From positions 1 through 64,000 of the forward strand of contig PAPT01000039.1 of the NCBI GenBank assembly GCA_002708995.1: 64,000 nt of DNA, given 5' to 3'. This DNA is from Geminicoccus sp. GTDB taxonomy: Bacteria; Pseudomonadota; Alphaproteobacteria; UBA7985. The notes beneath the pieces are model-generated. The model had not been told where the DNA came from, did not search any database, and saw nothing but the letters and a program-made list of their open reading frames with translations. The position numbers and the translations under genes were made by a program. Below, piece by piece: positions 1,912 to 14,534 of the stretch; position 1 is the first letter of the stretch; every line of letters starts with the position of its first letter.

Positions 1912-3048
1912 TCAGGTCTCCATCTCGTCGCGGAACGAGGTACCGATCAGGGCGCGAATGATATGGTAGTGGTCCTCGAACATCCGCTGCGGGTCGAGCT
2001 GGTGGAACGGCAGCCAGAACGCGACCAGCCGCTGCTCGCTGCCCCGCACCTGCGGCAGGCTGGTGCTGTCGCGCAGCTGGATCAGATGGGCGTGGGCGAT
2101 GGTCCGCCCCCGCGCCGAGCGCTTGGGATAGTCGAACACGTCGGTCGAGCGGATCGAGCCGCGGAGCACGGCCTCTGGCACCTTGATCCGCGTATCCTCA
2201 CGCAGCTCGCGAATGACGCCGTCCTCGAGGCTTTCGTCCTCGCGCACGAAGCCGCCGGGCAAGGCCGTCAGTCCCAGCCCCGGGCGGGTATTGCGCTCGA
2301 TCAGCAGCACGTGCCCGGACTGGACCACCACGGCGGCAACGGTGACAAAGGTCGGCGGATATGGCGATTCGGCCCAGCCCGACTTATAGTTCTGGATGAA
2401 GCGGTCCTCCTCGACCACGTTGGCCAGCTCGGGCTGCGCCATGAAATCGCGGAGCAGCCGGATCACCGGTTCAGGGGTGACTTTGCGCAGGGTCTCCAGC
2501 ACCGGCGTGCTATCGTCGCTGAGGTCGCCGCCGGCGTCGAAGATTGCCCGGCGCAGGTCGGTGGCGTTGATGCCGCGATAGTTGTCACAGTCGATGCTCT
2601 GCCACTCGGGGAACAGGCGCAGGTAGTAGGAGCTCTCGTCCTTGGAATGCCCGATCAGAGCGATTTCCGGGTCGGGCCGCTCGGGCTCGATCCGCGCCAT
2701 GACCCGCTGCACGGCAACCCGGATATTGGTGATCCATGCAGGGTCGTTATAGAGCACGTCCATCAGCGGCACGATCTGAATGCGGGCGTTGTCGGCTTCA
2801 TCGAAGCTGGCCCGGATCATGGCGGCGCGCTCGTTGTGGGTGAAGGGGTTCATCGGCGTGCGTGGCTGCAGCGCCGAGCCGAGCAGCAGCACAACGTGGC
2901 GCGCCTGCTCCAACGCGCGGCGGATCACCGACTGGTGGCCGAAATGGAAGGGCTGGGCGCGAAGGATGAAGACCGCGACGTCCGGGCGGAAGTAAGCGTC
3001 AGTGGTTGCGGCGTCGGCGACGGGCGCCTCTCTCGATGGGGTCGTCAT
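1912..3048 (-). CDS. bifunctional NMN adenylyltransferase / Nudix hydrolase
   Basis: 378 residues with two domains. Residues about 24-195 are a NadM-type nucleotidyltransferase: HFGH at 35-38 is the HxGH adenylylation motif, and LIGHSKDESSYY (131-142) is typical of the NadM/Nudix fusion family. Residues about 232-365 are a Nudix domain, with the box beginning GGFVREDE (265-272) and REL (280-282); the second box glutamate is Asp (RELRED). The family makes NAD from NMN and ATP and hydrolyses ADP-ribose-type nucleotides, linking NAD synthesis with salvage. Start ATG at 3048 gives MTTPSREAP. It is transcribed alone; the next minus-strand gene upstream begins at 3880. Confidence 0.9.
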   Translation of the reverse strand: MTTPSREAPVADAATTDAYFRPDVAVFILRAQPFHFGHQSVIRRALEQARHVVLLLGSALQPRTPMNPFTHNERAAMIRASFDEADNARIQIVPLMDVLYNDPAWITNIRVAVQRVMARIEPERPDPEIALIGHSKDESSYYLRLFPEWQSIDCDNYRGINATDLRRAIFDAGGDLSDDSTPVLETLRKVTPEPVIRLLRDFMAQPELANVVEEDRFIQNYKSGWAESPYPPTFVTVAAVVVQSGHVLLIERNTRPGLGLTALPGGFVREDESLEDGVIRELREDTRIKVPEAVLRGSIRSTDVFDYPKRSARGRTIAHAHLIQLRDSTSLPQVRGSEQRLVAFWLPFHQLDPQRMFEDHYHIIRALIGTSFRDEMET

Positions 3049-7411: not shown

Positions 7412-7762
7412 TTGCACCATGCCCGCCGCCAAGCCAACGTCATTGAACCACCCTGCACGCCTGCCACGGCGTGTGCTTGTGCCGTCGTGCTCAGGCTGGG
7501 GCTCAGCCTGCTCGGCGCCGACGCCACCGCGCAGACCCGCGCCACCCTGGTCCCGGCACCCGAAGAGGCGAGCAACACTATCCTCGTACTGGACTACTCG
7601 AACTTCATTTGGCGTCAGATCGAGGGTGTCCCGAAGATAGGAATCGTCCGCAACATCATCGAGAGCAATCTGGCTGAGTGGACCCAGTCGACCCAGCCGC
7701 GACCGAAGCCGCAACCCATCAGCCCAGCCTCAAGGGCGGGTCGTAGAGCGACATGGGTCTGA
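7412..7762 (+). pseudogene. remnant of secreted von Willebrand factor A domain protein
   Basis: After a hydrophobic signal-like segment (VVLRLGLSLLGADATAQT), the frame reads NTILVLDYSNFIWRQIEG and VPKIGIVRNIIESNLAEW. This is the first strand and helix of a bacterial VWA domain, which usually reads close to LDASGSMWGQIEG. The metal-site motif DxSxS is DYSNF here, so the second serine is lost, and the glycine before QIEG is Arg. Homology ends after about 40 residues; the remainder of the domain is missing. The intact plus-strand terminator at 7814 supports a formerly expressed gene. I infer a decaying fragment. Confidence 0.5.
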
Positions 7763-7877: not shown

Positions 7878-8945
7878 TCAGGCCGCCAGCCGTATGACGC
7901 GGGCCGTGTGGAAGCCCACATCCCCATTCAGCAGATTGAAAGTGGTCAGGGACTTGGCGTAGGCGCCGATGCCGTAGTCCAGCGTCATACCCATACCGCC
8001 GTGCAGCTGGATGCTCTCTTCGGCCACAAGCGTCGCTGCCCGGCCAATTTTGGCCTTGGCCATGGACGCGGCGCGCAGCAGCGCGTCTCCGGACTGCAGA
8101 TTGGCCTGATTGGCCGCCCAGATCGCCATCGAACGGGCGTCCTGCACCTCCATGTTCATATCCACCAGCCGGAACTGCAGCGCCTGAAACGCGGCCAGCG
8201 GACGGCCGAACTGCTTGCGCACGCTGAGATATTCGCGGGTCATTTCAGCCGCCGCCTGCATGATGCCAACGGCCATTGCGCATTCGGCAATCACCCGGCG
8301 AGCGTTTGCAGCCTCGATTTCGGCAAAGCCGATGCCCTCGATCCGGCTTGCAGGCACCGCCTCCAGTCGCAGGTCGGTGAAGGGTCGCCCGTCCTGCAGC
8401 GGATAGTCGAACCGGGTCACGCCGTCGTCGTCCAGCGCCACGCGGTAAAGCCCCACGGCGCCCGCCTCGTCCAACGCCGATACCAGCGCGTGGGTCAGTC
8501 CGGCGACATTGGCGACCAGTGTTTTCTCACCGCTCAAGTGGCCTTGGCCATCGACCCGGCACCCGACCGGTTTCAGGCTGTGGCGCTGCCCGCGCTCGAA
8601 CAGGGCCAGCGTATGCGCCGATGCGGCTTCCACCACGTCAGGCACGCCCTGCCCCAGCGCACAGACCGCCGTCATGGCGTCCAGCACCGGCTCGAGCACC
8701 AGCCCCGGGCCCAGCGCCTCCCCGACCACCAGCGCATCGAAGGCATCACCACCCAGCCCGCCGAGATCCTCAGGCACCTGCACAAGGCTCAGGCCGAGGT
8801 CATCCAGCTCTGCTGCTACGGCGGGGTCATGGCCGGCCGCGTTGGCGAGATAGCCCTTGCGCTGGTCGAGCGCGTAGCGGTCGGCGACAAAGCGGCTGAC
8901 GGTTTCCTGCAGCAGGCGCTGGTCGTCACTGAGGCCAAAATCCAT
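7878..8945 (-). CDS. acyl-CoA dehydrogenase, small subunit type
   Basis: 355 residues starting MDFGLSDDQRLLQETVSRF, a typical acyl-CoA dehydrogenase N-terminus. The C-terminal domain contains RKQFGRPLAAFQALQFRLVDM (about 240-260) and the FAD-contact segment QLHGGMGMTLDYGIG. It lacks the common IQR C-terminal motif and the mid-domain is compact. The enzyme would introduce the alpha-beta double bond into acyl-CoA, passing electrons to ETF. It is the last gene of a four-gene beta-oxidation operon. Pairs of one short and one longer dehydrogenase often form alpha2beta2 heterotetramers with one active site per pair; that arrangement is an inference here. Confidence 0.88.
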   Translation of the reverse strand: MDFGLSDDQRLLQETVSRFVADRYALDQRKGYLANAAGHDPAVAAELDDLGLSLVQVPEDLGGLGGDAFDALVVGEALGPGLVLEPVLDAMTAVCALGQGVPDVVEAASAHTLALFERGQRHSLKPVGCRVDGQGHLSGEKTLVANVAGLTHALVSALDEAGAVGLYRVALDDDGVTRFDYPLQDGRPFTDLRLEAVPASRIEGIGFAEIEAANARRVIAECAMAVGIMQAAAEMTREYLSVRKQFGRPLAAFQALQFRLVDMNMEVQDARSMAIWAANQANLQSGDALLRAASMAKAKIGRAATLVAEESIQLHGGMGMTLDYGIGAYAKSLTTFNLLNGDVGFHTARVIRLAA

Positions 8946-8999: not shown

Positions 9000-10196
9000 T
9001 CAGGCGCTGAGCATGGCCTTGGCGATGATGGTTCGCTGGATCTCATTGGAGCCACCGAAAATCGAAACCTTGCGCATGTTCAGGTAAGTCGGCGCTGCGC
9101 CGGCGGCGTAGTCCGGCCCCAGCGGCGGCTCGTTGCGACCGTGGAGAACCAGACCTTGCTGCTCCACGGCGGCGGCCGGACCGACGGCTTCCATGATCAG
9201 GCGGCTGAGCCGCTGGTTCAGGTCCGAACCCCGGATTTTCAACATCCCAGCGAAGGTCAGGTCGGCTTGGTTGGCCGGGTCGGCCAGCACCCGCAGGTTG
9301 GTGATATCGAGCGCGGTCAAGTCCATTTCTAGCTCTGCAACCTGCTGTGCGAACAGAGGGTCGTTGATCAGCGCACCGTCGCCCTCAGTCTGCTCCATTC
9401 CAGCGATGGCCTTGAGCCGGTTCAGCTGTTCACGGGCCGCGCCGATCTGGGCGATGCCGAAGCGCTCGTGTGCGAGCAGGAACTTGGCGTAATCCCAGCC
9501 CTTGTTCTCCTCGCCCACGAGGTTTTCGGCAGGAATACGGACGTTGTCGAAGAAGACCTCGTTCACCTCGTGATAGTTGTCTAGCAGCACGATCGGCTTC
9601 ACTTCGATCCCTGGCGTATCCATGTCGAGCAGCATGAAGGAAATCCCCTTCTGCGGCTTACACTCGCTGTCGGTGCGGGTGAGGATGAACATCTTGTCCG
9701 CGTGCTGGGCGTAGGTGGTCCAGGTCTTATGACCATTGAGCACCCATTCGTCGCCGTCGCGCACGGCCGAGGTCTTGAGAGACGCCAGATCGGAACCCGA
9801 ACCGGGCTCGGAAAAGCCCTGACACCACCAGTCCTCGATGCTGGCGATCCGGGGAAGGTAGCGTTCCTGCTGCTCTCGCGAGCCGAAGGCCTGCAGCACC
9901 GGTCCCACCATGCTGACCCCAAAGGCCAGCCGCCGTGGGCAGTGGTGAGCGGCTGCGACTTCCTCAAAAATTTGGTTGCGGAGCGCGCTCCAGCCCAGAC
10001 CACCCCACTCAGGCGCCCAGTTCGGCACGGCCCAGCCACGGGCGTATAGCGCCCGGTGATAGTCGACGATTTCACCCTTTGTCAGACGATGGCCAAGGCG
10101 GGTCTTTTCACGGGTTTCGCGGTCGACCTGGGTCTCGCAGAAGGCGACAACCTCGTCGCGGAATTTCAGGTCTTCGCTGGAAAAAGTCAGGTCCAT
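9000..10196 (-). CDS. acyl-CoA dehydrogenase, large subunit type
   Basis: 398 residues. It has the signature QGFSEPGSGSDLASLKT (FAD-binding strand, about 151-167), the conserved NGHKTWTTYA segment, and C-terminal FGGSNEIQRTIIAK. The mammalian medium-chain catalytic Glu position in that last motif is Gly, and a Glu is available in LLAHERFG, as in many bacterial heteromeric or long-chain enzymes. It catalyses the first oxidative step of beta-oxidation with ETF as acceptor. It lies 54 bp upstream of the smaller dehydrogenase and 41 bp after the thiolase, so all are co-transcribed. Chain-length preference is not evident. Confidence 0.9.
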   Translation of the reverse strand: MDLTFSSEDLKFRDEVVAFCETQVDRETREKTRLGHRLTKGEIVDYHRALYARGWAVPNWAPEWGGLGWSALRNQIFEEVAAAHHCPRRLAFGVSMVGPVLQAFGSREQQERYLPRIASIEDWWCQGFSEPGSGSDLASLKTSAVRDGDEWVLNGHKTWTTYAQHADKMFILTRTDSECKPQKGISFMLLDMDTPGIEVKPIVLLDNYHEVNEVFFDNVRIPAENLVGEENKGWDYAKFLLAHERFGIAQIGAAREQLNRLKAIAGMEQTEGDGALINDPLFAQQVAELEMDLTALDITNLRVLADPANQADLTFAGMLKIRGSDLNQRLSRLIMEAVGPAAAVEQQGLVLHGRNEPPLGPDYAAGAAPTYLNMRKVSIFGGSNEIQRTIIAKAMLSA

Positions 10197-10237: not shown

Positions 10238-11437
10238 TCATGCGATTTCGAACAGGCCCGCAGCGCCCATGCCGCCACCCACGCACATGGTGATGACAGT
10301 GAAGCGTTCGCCCCGGCGCTTGGCTTCAAGCAGGGCGTGGCCGACCAGCCGCGCGCCAGTCATGCCGTAAGGGTGGCCGATGGCGATCGACGAGCCATTC
10401 ACGTTCAGCTGCTCGTCGGGGATACCCAGCCGGTCGCGGCAGTAAAGCACCTGCACCGCGAAGGCCTCGTTGAGTTCCCACACGCCGATGTTGTCCAGGC
10501 TCAGCCCATGCGCATCGAGCAGCTTGGGCACGGCAAACACGGGGCCGATGCCCATTTCGTCCGGTTCGCAGCCTGCCACGGCAATCCCGCGGTAGAAACC
10601 CAGTGGCTCGATGCCGCGTCGTTCAGCCTCAGCGCGCTCCATCACCACGGTCGCCGCTGCGCCGTCGGAGAGCTGGGAGGCATTTCCGGCCGTGATCGTG
10701 CCACCTTCCACTACGGTCTTGAGGCCGGAAACCTGCTCGAAGGTGGAAGGCCGCAGGCCCTCGTCGCGATCGATGGTGATCTCGGCGTCGGTGACGGTGC
10801 CGGTTTCCCGGTCCATGACCTTCTTGGTCACGGTCATGGCGATGACCTCGTCGGCCAGACGCCCGGCCTCGTTCGCCGCGATGGCGCGGGTCTGCGAATT
10901 AGCGCCGTAGCGGTCCATATCCTCGCGCGACACGCCGTAGCGCGCGGCGACGGTCTCAGCTGTCTGCAGCATGGGCATGAAGTAGTCCGGCGCGTTGCTC
11001 AGCACTGTTGGATCGAGCAGGCGGTGGGTGTTCTGGTGCTCATTCTGCACCAGCGAGATCGACTCAACCCCGCCGCCGACCACGGTGGTCATCCCATCGG
11101 CAACGATCTGCTTGGCGGCTGTGGCAATGGCCATCATCCCCGAGGAGCACTGGCGGTCCAGCGTCATACCCGACACCGATACCGGCAGCCCGGCAGCGAG
11201 CGCGCCCGACCGGCCGATATTCAGCCCCGAAGAGCCCTGCGGCATGGCACAGCCCATCACGCAGTCGTCGACTTCAGCACCATCGATCCCGGCGCGCTCG
11301 ACGGCCGCCGCGATGGCCGCCCCGGCGAGGGCAGGCGCGCCGGTGTCGTTGAAGGCACCGCGATAGGCCTTGCCGATGGGGGTCCGGGCGAAGGAGGCGA
11401 TGACCGCCTCGCGTGCACCAATGTTAAAGTGCGCCAT
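10238..11437 (-). CDS. fadA: acetyl-CoA C-acyltransferase (3-ketoacyl-CoA thiolase)
   Basis: 399 residues, the normal thiolase length. The nucleophilic Cys97 is in LDRQCSSGM; His355 is in [10 protein letters not shown]; the second catalytic Cys385 is in [11 protein letters not shown]. All are intact. It cleaves 3-ketoacyl-CoA with CoA to acetyl-CoA and the shortened acyl-CoA. It sits 48 bp downstream of the multifunctional hydratase/dehydrogenase, as in fadBA-type operons. A role in acetoacetyl-CoA metabolism is possible, but the neighbours favour degradative thiolase. Confidence 0.93.
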
Positions 11438-11485: not shown

Positions 11486-13627
11486 TCAGGCCGCGCGCGC
11501 CTTGCTCCACTGTTCAAAGGTCTGGCCCTCGGCAACCAGCTGCTTCAGCAGCGCCGAAGGCTTCCACGCATGATCACCGGTCCGGGCGTAGGCTGCCTCG
11601 ATCCGCTCGAGGCTGGCTGCCAGCCCCTCGGCGTCGGCGCGGAACATGGGCCCACCCCGGAAGGCCGGGTAGCCGTAGCCGAAAATGTAGGTGATATCGA
11701 TGTCGACCGGCCGCATGGCGATGCTCTCTTCGAGGATTTTGGCCCCCTCGTTGGTCATCAGGTCGGTCAGGGCATTAAGGATCTCTTCGTCGCTGAAGTC
11801 GCGCCGCTCGATGCCCTTGCGCGCACTCTCGGCCAGCACCAGCGCTGTCACCGCGGCATTGGGTATGGGCTTGCGCGAGCCTTCGATATAGTCGAAGTAG
11901 CCGCCGCCAGTCTTCTGCCCCAGCCGACCCATTTCAACCACGCGGTCGCCGATCTCGACGTAGCGCTCGTTGCCCGAACGGGTCGCCGCCTGCTCCTGCC
12001 GGATGCGGTAGCCGACATCCAGCCCAGCAAGGTCGGACATGGCAAATGGCCCCATGGGCATGCCGAATTCGGTCCAGACGCGGTCGATCTGCTCGGGCAT
12101 GCAGCCGTCTTCGAGCAGGATCGACGCCCAGCGCAGATACTGGTGCAGGATGCGGTTGCCGACGAAGCCGTCGCAGACCCCGACCAGCACCGAGACCTTG
12201 CCCAGCCGCTTGCCCGTGAGCATGGCCGTCAGGATCACGTCGTCAGCTGTTTCGGCACCGCGTACGTTCTCCAGTAGCCGCATGACGTTGGCGGGGGAGA
12301 AGAAGTGCATGCCGACCACATCCTGCGGCCGGTCGGTGACGCTGGCGATTTCGTCGATATCCAGCGTCGACGTGTTGGTGGCCAGCACACAGCCCGGCTT
12401 ACAAATGGCGTCCAGTCGGGTGAAGATATCCTTCTTCACACCCATGTTCTCGAACACCGCCTCGATCACCAGATCGACCTCGGCCAGCGTCTGCATGTCG
12501 GTGGTACCGGTGAGCAGCGCCATGCGCTCTTCGACATTAGCCTCGGTCATCCGGCCCTTTTTGGCGCTGTTTTCATAGTTTTTTCGGCACAGGTTCAGAC
12601 CGCGTTCGAGCGCCTCTTCGGTCTGCTCGACCACGGTGACCGGGATCCCGGCGTTGGCGAAGCACATGGCGATGCCCCCGCCCATGGTCCCAGCGCCGAT
12701 CACGGCAGCGCGGGCGACGTCCCGCGGCTTAGCAGCCGGGGCCAGCCCGGGGATCTTGGCGACTTCACGCTCACCGAAGAAGGCGTGGATCAGGCCCTTG
12801 GACTGATCGCTGGTCAGACCGCGCATGAAAATATCACGCTCCAGCTTCAGGCCTTCGGCGAAGGGAAGCGTCAGCCCACCCTGCACGGCCTCCAGCGAGA
12901 GTAGCGGCGAGATCTGGCCGCGCGATCGGGCCACGATGGCGGCTTCGGCGGCTTCGAAATAGCCCTCAGGCACGCTCGGCGAAGGAAGCTCGCCCACGCG
13001 GGTCCATTCACCCGCCGCGGCGAGTTCGCGCGCGCGCGTGACAGCGGCGGCGACGCAGTCTTCATCGACGGCCTCGACGATGCCGGCAGAAAGCGCCCGC
13101 GCGGCGCTGATCGGCTTGCCGGTGGTGCTGAGTTCCACCACAATCTCGACCCCAGCGAGGCGCGGCATGCGCTGCGTCCCACCCGCGCCGGGAATGACGC
13201 CCAGATGCACTTCGGGGAAGCCGACCTTGGCCTTGGGGTGGGCGATGCGGGCGTGACAGCCCAGCGTCAGTTCCAGCCCACCACCCAGCGCGAAGCCGTT
13301 AACGGCGGCAACGACCGGCTTGCTGGCACCTTCGATCTGGTCGATGACTTCATTGAGGCCCGGTTCCGCAATCGGCTTGCCGAATTCGGTGATATCCGCC
13401 CCGGCTACAAAGGCCCGGCCGCCACCGGTCAGCACGGCGCCAACCACACTGCCGTTAGCCTCCAGCGCGTCGATTGCGGCGATCAGGCCGACCCGGACCG
13501 CGTGGCCCAGCGCATTGACCGGCGGATTATTGATGGTGATGAGCAGCACATCGTCCTGCGCCTGCCAGCTGACCGGGTTGGAATCGGGCACCGTGCGGGC
13601 ATCCTGCGCGGCGACGTTCTGCGTCAT
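11486..13627 (-). CDS. fadJ: fatty acid oxidation multifunctional enzyme: enoyl-CoA hydratase / 3-hydroxyacyl-CoA dehydrogenase
   Basis: 713 residues, the usual size of bacterial and peroxisomal-type multifunctional enzymes. The N-terminal crotonase domain (about 20-200) has the oxyanion elements [15 protein letters not shown] and [16 protein letters not shown], and the acid-base Glu in [16 protein letters not shown]. The central NAD-binding domain has [19 protein letters not shown] (about 312-330), followed by [10 protein letters not shown] and [11 protein letters not shown] of the 3-hydroxyacyl-CoA dehydrogenase. It performs steps two and three of beta-oxidation. It is first in the operon, with a ribosome site AGAGGAAA and a 20-bp palindromic operator upstream. 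I use fadJ for the architecture; fadB would be equally acceptable. Confidence 0.92.
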
Positions 13628-13659
13628 GGGGTCGGGTTTCCTCTGATTAACAACTCTAT

Positions 13660-13692
13660 GGTAAAATGCACGTTTTACCCAAGGAGAGTCAA
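13660..13692 (-). promoter_or_regulatory. palindromic operator and likely promoter of the fad operon
   Basis: A perfect inverted repeat, GGTAAAA-TGCACG-TTTTACC (13660-13679), lies 32 bp upstream of the fadJ start. On the minus strand a -35-like TTGACT (13692-13687) and a weak CATTTT at about 18-bp spacing bracket it, so a bound repressor would cover the spacer and -10 region. The half-site length and spacing suit a dimeric TetR- or GntR-type repressor responding to acyl-CoA. No regulator gene is adjacent, so the protein is unknown. Confidence 0.62.
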
Positions 13693-13724
13693 GAAGCCGT
13701 CACTGGCCGTTTGCAGGACTCTGA

Positions 13725-14534
13725 TCAGCGTACCGCTGCCTTGATCGCACCAAGGCTGTCGTTCGGCGCCTCGCCGTGGGCGAAATGGCCGATGTCCCAC
13801 AGCGTGATGACCCGTGCGCCTTCGATCCCCTCTGCTACGGCGAGGCCGTTCTTGGGTGCGGTCATGCGGTCGCGCTGGGAGACGATGACGGTGGTCTTGG
13901 CAGTGATCCGGGAGAGCGCTTCACCGCCGCCTGCATAGGCATTGCTGGCCGCCAGATCGATGCCCAGCGTGCCATCGGCGACCCGGGGCATGACCATGCG
14001 CTTGGCTGTGCCCTTGGCCCAAGTGCCCGCCGCGATGTTGCCCCCGGTGTGCCCGGCCGGGCCGTGGCCCCAGTCCATCATCAAGTCGACGGCCTTCTCC
14101 TCCCGGTCAGCGGCGGCGCGCAGCAGTTCGGGGTGGACGGGCATGGCGGCGGTCGGACCAGTCAGCACCAGCTGGTCAACCCGGTCGCCGTGGCGAGATG
14201 CAAGCTCGATGGCGATCAGGGAGCCCATGGAGTGGCCAACCAGCGTCGCGCTGTCGATACCAGCAGCGTCCATGAAATCGATCAGCCAGTCGGCCATGGC
14301 CTCGATTGAGGTCAGCGGCTCGCCGCCCGAGACGCGCGCACCGACGCCGTGTCCGGGTAGATCGACGGCGTAGAGGTTCCAGCCGTGGAAGGCGAAGTAC
14401 CGCGACTGGTAGCCCCAGACCGAGTGATCGCAGCCCGAGCCGTGGATGAAGATGATGTTGGGCTGGCCGTCCTTGGCCCCCTGCCCGGCATCGAAATAGA
14501 GCGCCGTCGCCCCGCGAACTTCAACTGATTTCAT
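13725..14534 (-). CDS. alpha/beta hydrolase
   Basis: 269 residues. The oxyanion HGSGCDHSVW (31-40) and nucleophile elbow LVGHSMGSLIA with Ser102 identify an alpha/beta hydrolase; the catalytic His is in WDIGHFAHGEAP near the C-terminus. DLPGHGVG after strand 4 is typical of the MhpC/esterase group. It starts with ATG at 14534 (MKSVEVRG). The substrate cannot be deduced. It lies upstream of the fad operon on the same strand but is separated from it by the operator region, so it is probably a separate unit. Confidence 0.82.
   Translation of the reverse strand: MKSVEVRGATALYFDAGQGAKDGQPNIIFIHGSGCDHSVWGYQSRYFAFHGWNLYAVDLPGHGVGARVSGGEPLTSIEAMADWLIDFMDAAGIDSATLVGHSMGSLIAIELASRHGDRVDQLVLTGPTAAMPVHPELLRAAADREEKAVDLMMDWGHGPAGHTGGNIAAGTWAKGTAKRMVMPRVADGTLGIDLAASNAYAGGGEALSRITAKTTVIVSQRDRMTAPKNGLAVAEGIEGARVITLWDIGHFAHGEAPNDSLGAIKAAVR

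Follow-up and report, generated by a model that had tools for sequence, protein, structure and literature searches.

In Bacillus subtilis, beta-oxidation is regulated by FadR, a protein of TetR fold that is released by acyl-CoA, and in Rhodopseudomonas palustris the pimFABCDE operon serves the beta-oxidation of dicarboxylates. In the comparative account of PMC5343134, FadR, PsrA, FadP, LiuR and LiuQ are the proteobacterial regulators of such pathways and replace one another between lineages, with FadP confined to the Betaproteobacteria and FadR found in Enterobacteriales, Vibrionales and Shewanella. PsrA, a TetR-family protein of Pseudomonas and other Gammaproteobacteria, is described as recognizing the operator G/CAAAC(N2-4)GTTTG/C (PMC13104628, PMC10304680), and the operators given for it include GAAAC-N4-GTTTC and TTCAAAC-N4-GTTTGAA (PMC13104628; PMC10304680).

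We analyzed a stretch of 64,000 nucleotides from Geminicoccus sp. (referred to as the window), in which an inverted repeat lies in front of a beta-oxidation operon. By analogy, the nearest known design is that of PsrA. Both systems concern a regulon for fatty-acid degradation, a TetR-type protein is proposed here as well, and the AAAY-N4-RTTT core at this locus has the same register as the core AAAC-N4-GTTT in the published PsrA operators. The outer arms differ, being GGT..ACC here and TTC..GAA in those operators. FadP (TetR), FadR (GntR) and LiuR (MerR) likewise have acyl-CoA catabolism regulons with predicted sites, a likeness that we draw from their description in PMC5343134 and not from the motif. 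Judged by these analogies, the system appears to work as those of PsrA, FadR, FadP and LiuR do, so that the type of switch is a familiar one and not a new kind of regulation.

The inverted repeat and the operon behind it

The following features of the window define the locus:

7878..8945, minus strand: acyl-CoA dehydrogenase, PimD-like
9000..10196, minus strand: acyl-CoA dehydrogenase, PimC-like
10238..11437, minus strand: acetyl-CoA C-acyltransferase (thiolase)
11486..13627, minus strand: trifunctional enoyl-CoA hydratase / 3-hydroxyacyl-CoA dehydrogenase, FadB/FadJ-like, 713 aa, first gene of the operon
13660..13679, no strand assigned: putative operator, GGTAAAA-TGCACG-TTTTACC, motif GTRAAAY-N4-RTTTYAC

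The sequence at 13660-13679, GGTAAAATGCACGTTTTACC, is an exact inverted repeat whose fully complementary arms of 7 bp each enclose a spacer of 6 nt (TGCACG). An earlier note on this DNA had described it as a perfect 20-bp palindrome, which overstates its symmetry, since the spacer is itself asymmetric. The interval that was then assigned to it, 13660-13692, does contain the repeat, but the part beyond 13679 consists of 7 bases followed by TTGACT on the minus strand. The distance of 32 nt between the repeat and the ATG of the fadJ-like gene (13627, minus strand) is as had been reported, and the four minus-strand genes listed above, which are separated by gaps of 41-54 bp, do make up a beta-oxidation operon downstream of it.

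The first gene scores below the cut-offs of the NCBIfam FadB and FadJ equivalog models (445.5 of 870 and 436.2 of 869 bits); judged from its sequence, it has the FadB/FadJ architecture and lies outside that equivalog. As in pimFABCDE, a trifunctional enzyme and a thiolase are joined with PimC-like and PimD-like dehydrogenases, although unlike those of pimFABCDE the dehydrogenases of the window do not reach the curated thresholds (465.9 of 623.85 and 188.6 of 652.7). A PimC-like/PimD-like pair of this kind suggests that the substrates of the operon may be dicarboxylic or otherwise special acyl-CoAs and not plain fatty acids.

Within the window the repeat was the sole match at up to 3 mismatches, a loose threshold at which shuffled sequences give 0.32 matches on average, and the window by itself could not settle whether the repeat exceeds chance.

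Recurrence of the site in the genome and the genus

The 2.60-Mb genome to which the window belongs (G000) holds two perfect copies of the repeat, where about 0.0009 would be expected under a mononucleotide model with a GC content of 0.644, and three copies with two mismatches. The other perfect copy (C16:102182-102201) is found 33 bp ahead of a thiolase gene, the first gene of a thiolase-FadB-acyl-CoA dehydrogenase operon, and one of the two-mismatch copies lies 24 bp before etfBA (named from its sequence by eye). The product of etfBA is the flavoprotein that accepts electrons from acyl-CoA dehydrogenases. Two-mismatch sites on contigs C22 and C32 of G000, and most others, are located in or beside genes judged by eye to be unrelated, and these sites were excluded from the site set.

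Each of six genomes of the genus has at least one perfect copy, and from the aligned sites the refined motif GTRAAAY-N4-RTTTYAC was derived. Exact matches were found at 19 places, compared to about 0.1 expected (three in G000, two in G001, five in G002, three in G003, two in G004 and four in G005), and 17 of them precede beta-oxidation units:

fadJ-like operon: G000, G002, G004
thiolase operon, i.e. (ligase)-thiolase-FadB-acyl-CoA dehydrogenase: G000, G002; headed by the ligase in G001, G003, G005
etfBA: G000, G002 (two contigs), G003
SCP2 lipid-carrier gene (96 aa): G001, G002, G003, G004, G005

The remaining two, both in G005, lie inside unrelated genes (named by eye). In all 16 sites for which the distance was measured, the site ends 20-37 bp before the start codon; the seventeenth repeats one of these, the etfB leader of G002, on another contig. 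The same site thus recurs before several unlinked beta-oxidation units, as is expected of the operator of a fatty-acid oxidation regulon. The earlier note had predicted further copies at acyl-CoA genes, and such copies were indeed found at the thiolase operon and etfBA of the same genome and before the units of the related genomes; the adverse outcome that it named, no other copies near fatty-acid genes, was looked for and did not occur.

When one mismatch was allowed, the refined motif gave 37 forward matches in the genus compared to 15 with the reversed control, and the motif before its refinement (up to one mismatch) 13 compared to 4. With up to two mismatches there was no excess in the genus (38 compared to 45 in the control); for this reason no weaker sites can be assigned, and the regulon is a small one. 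Outside the site, similarity among the fadJ, etfB and SCP2 leaders does not exceed that of shuffled sequence, with the exception of one SCP2-etfB pair (p 0.03), which indicates that the motif itself is conserved and that it occurs in at least three independent contexts. The fadJ and thiolase leaders weakly resemble the ligase leader of G005 (p 0.014 and 0.004, respectively), but not that of G003.

In G001, G003 and G005 the leading gene of the thiolase operon encodes an AMP-binding, long-chain acyl-CoA ligase-like protein, and this gene is missing from that position in the window's clade (G000, G002 and G004). The G000 assembly yielded no SCP2 gene, possibly due to an assembly gap, and EtfB was found only in G000, G002 and G003, where again its absence from the other assemblies may reflect gaps. 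The etfB region of G002 is present on contigs C5 and C56 (L143, L144) with identical bases around the site, which is probably an assembly duplication. In five genomes the operator-bearing SCP2 gene adjoins a pair of genes that by eye resemble sarcosine oxidase (L117, L119, L122, L125, L126). G004 is a metagenome-assembled genome labelled Kiloniella sp. MED755. The relatives L011-L014 from the protein search are G004, G003, G005 and G001 by identical 1-kb stretches, and do not count as independent evidence.

The leader of the fadJ-like operon

Around the repeat, the following elements were recognized:

13591..13730, minus strand: leader common to the fadJ-like operon and the C16 thiolase operon, 121 of 141 columns identical (86%)
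13637..13644, minus strand: likely ribosome-binding site AGAGGAAA, read from the sequence, conserved in the leader alignment
13663..13668, minus strand: weak -10 candidate CATTTT (3/6, 18-nt spacing), read from the sequence
13687..13692, minus strand: probable -35 hexamer TTGACT, read from the sequence, 7 nt before the operator

The repeat had been said to overlap a -35/-10-like pair. TTGACT is a fair -35 hexamer, which every fadJ leader of the genus retains, as does the thiolase leader. The claim of a pair is nonetheless too strong, as the sole -10 at 18 nt from TTGACT is the weak CATTTT, located inside the right arm of the operator on the minus strand, and a consensus scan of 13500-13900 detected no sigma-70-like promoter pair, leaving CATTTT unsupported.

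The leader comparison of G000 (INDEPENDENCE) shows that the similarity between the fadJ and thiolase leaders includes the first ten or so codons. The counterpart of the window leader precedes the thiolase gene on C16 (L006, about 8110-8250). At 86% identity, one of the two leaders must have been copied from the other, or both derive from a common source, and the fadJ and thiolase sites of this genome are consequently not independent of each other. G004 has a diverged fadJ leader, in which the spacer is different while both arms have stayed the same. The site is thus conserved against a diverged background, although the fadJ leaders of G001, G003 and G005 keep TTCTTGACTC and lack the operator. 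It follows that control of fadJ through the motif is a feature of one clade only. These other-clade leaders (L012, L013 and L014 just upstream of base 3001; also L248-L250) also keep CCTCCTTGTA, with a 23-nt gap that separates TTGACT from TA.

The motif beyond the genus

A strict form of the motif, which excludes some of the genus variants (e.g. all G005 sites), was present in one of 385 genomes of the class, namely only the window's own, and its control in none. Among 55 other genomes, 38 forward matches with up to one mismatch compared to 50 control matches gave no excess. Two of these 38 are perfect, one within a PhoR-like frame of G012 and one in G017. Neighbors of the sites in G006 (two), G011 (one) and G017 (one) did not match the beta-oxidation, thiolase-operon and etf proteins of the window's genome or their neighbors.

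A protein dimer as the likely reader of the site

Positions 8 and 13 of the site are a pyrimidine and a purine, respectively, in 15 of 15 sites, a count from which the second copy of the G002 etfB site and one identical G002 etfB site were omitted, and all four combinations occur (TG in 5, CA in 4, TA in 3 and CG in 3). Where the core of the published PsrA operators has C, position 8 is therefore relaxed here (C in 7 and T in 8 of the 15 sites), and the base that flanks the core is either A or G. As the two edges combine freely, the half-sites seem to be chosen independently, as they would be by a protein dimer on DNA, whereas pairing in RNA would need matched changes. Together with the recurrence in the genus, this makes it very probable that the inverted repeat serves a beta-oxidation regulon as its operator, and the idea of an operator put forward in the earlier note is supported in substance by the sequence comparisons.

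We propose that a homodimeric repressor would bind GTRAAAY-N4-RTTTYAC over the core promoter, with one subunit on each half-site. By doing so it would shut off the fadJ-like operon, the (ligase)-thiolase-FadB-acyl-CoA dehydrogenase operon, etfBA and the SCP2 gene, and its release would most likely be brought about by acyl-CoA or a fatty acid. The position of the dimer in the core promoter suggests repression, and the bound protein probably acts in this way; we have good confidence in the operator and the regulon taken together with repression. An activator or a dual-acting protein is an unlikely alternative in spite of the fact that PsrA is reported to repress its own gene and to activate rpoS, and that the poor -10 elements of these promoters would suit activation: the site coincides with the putative -10 or follows it, at 20-37 bp from the start codon, and a dimer bound at such a position should block the polymerase.

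The arms can also pair in RNA, and they do so in the predicted fold of the leader (z -1.87), as would be seen if the repeat were a terminator of the upstream hydrolase gene or a structure in the leader of the fadJ message. We regard this as very improbable and rejected a hairpin, terminator or Rfam element, given that a scan revealed no terminator-like site, that 10 of 200 shuffled sequences were equally stable and that Rfam gave no match. Moreover, the C..A edge of the spacer is unpaired in the sense strand, the pyrimidine and purine edges mix freely in the 15 sites, and the motif is found in front of four units whose upstream genes differ. Least probable of all is a neutral origin, by which the two copies in the genome would be alike only through the copying of a leader between operons. 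Such copying does account for the similarity of the fadJ and C16 leaders over their 141 columns (86%), but it fails for etfB and SCP2, whose leaders share the motif amid unrelated flanks in both clades of the genus; pure chance was rejected on the basis of the genome and genus counts.

A candidate regulator of the TetR family

The survey for the protein that could read this operator covered the TetR family (PF00440) in the six genus genomes and yielded 31 genes, three of which are in G000. One of these (contig C12; L186:4410-5036, minus strand; G000:C12:4413-5036) belongs to a group that is present in all six genomes, with orthologues that are 73-96% identical. In the 55 other genomes its relatives reach at best 35% identity over more than 100 residues. 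A match of about 62-63% in G019 is confined to the DNA-binding part. That this G019 protein (63% identical over 62 residues of this part) brings the motif along was rejected, since six genomes of its kind have zero exact matches and 10 one-mismatch matches compared to 26 in the control.

By domain and fold, the C12 protein is a TetR protein: its TetR_N domain scores 52.7 bits (cut-off 24), and its AlphaFold2 model (pLDDT 84.8) has the TetR fold. The C-terminal domain is AefR-like (PF14246). The recognition helix is unchanged in all six orthologues, and one position after it varies between H and Y/F. Curated models do not identify the protein as PsrA (NF053516, 27.2 bits with a cut-off of 300), Bacillus FadR, BetI or RutR. 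Bacillus subtilis FadR (3whb) is among its fold matches, but the C12 protein differs from it in scoring 35.4 bits against NF053878 (cut-off 200) and in its AefR-like C-terminus. The best sequence and fold matches are NalC, MexL, FrrA and AefR, with NalC (8ke8) first by fold (Z 19.5, rmsd 2.6, 197 aligned); identities are nevertheless 20-26%, and none of these is by its title a regulator of fatty-acid oxidation. The fold search, which places the protein near NalC, FrrA and AefR, is uninformative as to the ligand.

Upstream regions were scored for 28 of the 31 TetR genes (two lie at contig ends and one has no locus). Members of the C12 group in G001, G005 and G003 rank first, second and third of the 28, and in each a degenerate site lies near the beginning of the gene (empirical p 0.005, 0.011 and 0.021, respectively, against random stretches of fetched genus loci); as the three sequences are related, they amount together to little more than one observation. 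In the window's clade the left arm is degenerate and only the half-site GGTTTTACT precedes the gene; the bases TTTTACTTT are kept in all six genomes. The gene is remote from all targets, its neighbors encoding an alpha/beta hydrolase, a CxxCxxCC protein, an M15-type peptidase and an L,D-transpeptidase-like protein.

The earlier note had left the choice between a TetR and a GntR protein to footprinting or co-occurrence. Co-occurrence, and the degenerate site at a TetR gene in three of six genomes, favor the former, and the genus-specific C12 protein is the most likely candidate, although we consider the case for it evenly balanced. That another regulator uses the same operator, either of another TetR group or of the MerR/LiuR, GntR or MarR type, is quite possible, if on balance somewhat doubtful. 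The C12 gene is unlinked to the targets, with a mere half-site in the window's clade; two further TetR groups, a BetI-like one and a third, are widespread in the genus; and the searches were confined to the TetR family. On the other hand, the remaining TetR groups have no comparable promoter site. MerR activators typically bind the promoter spacer, unlike the sites at etfB and SCP2, which lie after the -10-like region. The AAAY-N4-RTTT core also shares the register of the core in the published operators of PsrA, a TetR protein.

Taking the C12 protein as the reader, we tentatively suggest that uncultured marine Alphaproteobacteria have an undescribed regulator of fatty-acid oxidation, a TetR protein specific to the genus and equipped with an AefR-like sensor domain, which would have taken over from PsrA, FadP or FadR. 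It would use GGTRAAAY-N4-RTTTYACC, and would control the fadJ operon only in the clade in which this operon and the thiolase operon share a copied leader with its operator. Among the titles and abstracts listed by a literature search, none described the motif or the C12 protein, which does not prove that no description exists. A palindrome noticed by eye has in this way become a defined regulon with a short list of targets and one protein as the leading candidate, in bacteria known here solely from metagenome assemblies. If true, this would be another independent rewiring of beta-oxidation control in the Proteobacteria, with regulon growth made visible by leader copying.

A separate palindrome, GGTCAAA-N6-TTTGACC, is present at the BetI-like TetR gene of G001 (C17, about 7704-7723; L178, L140), and is possibly that regulator's own operator.
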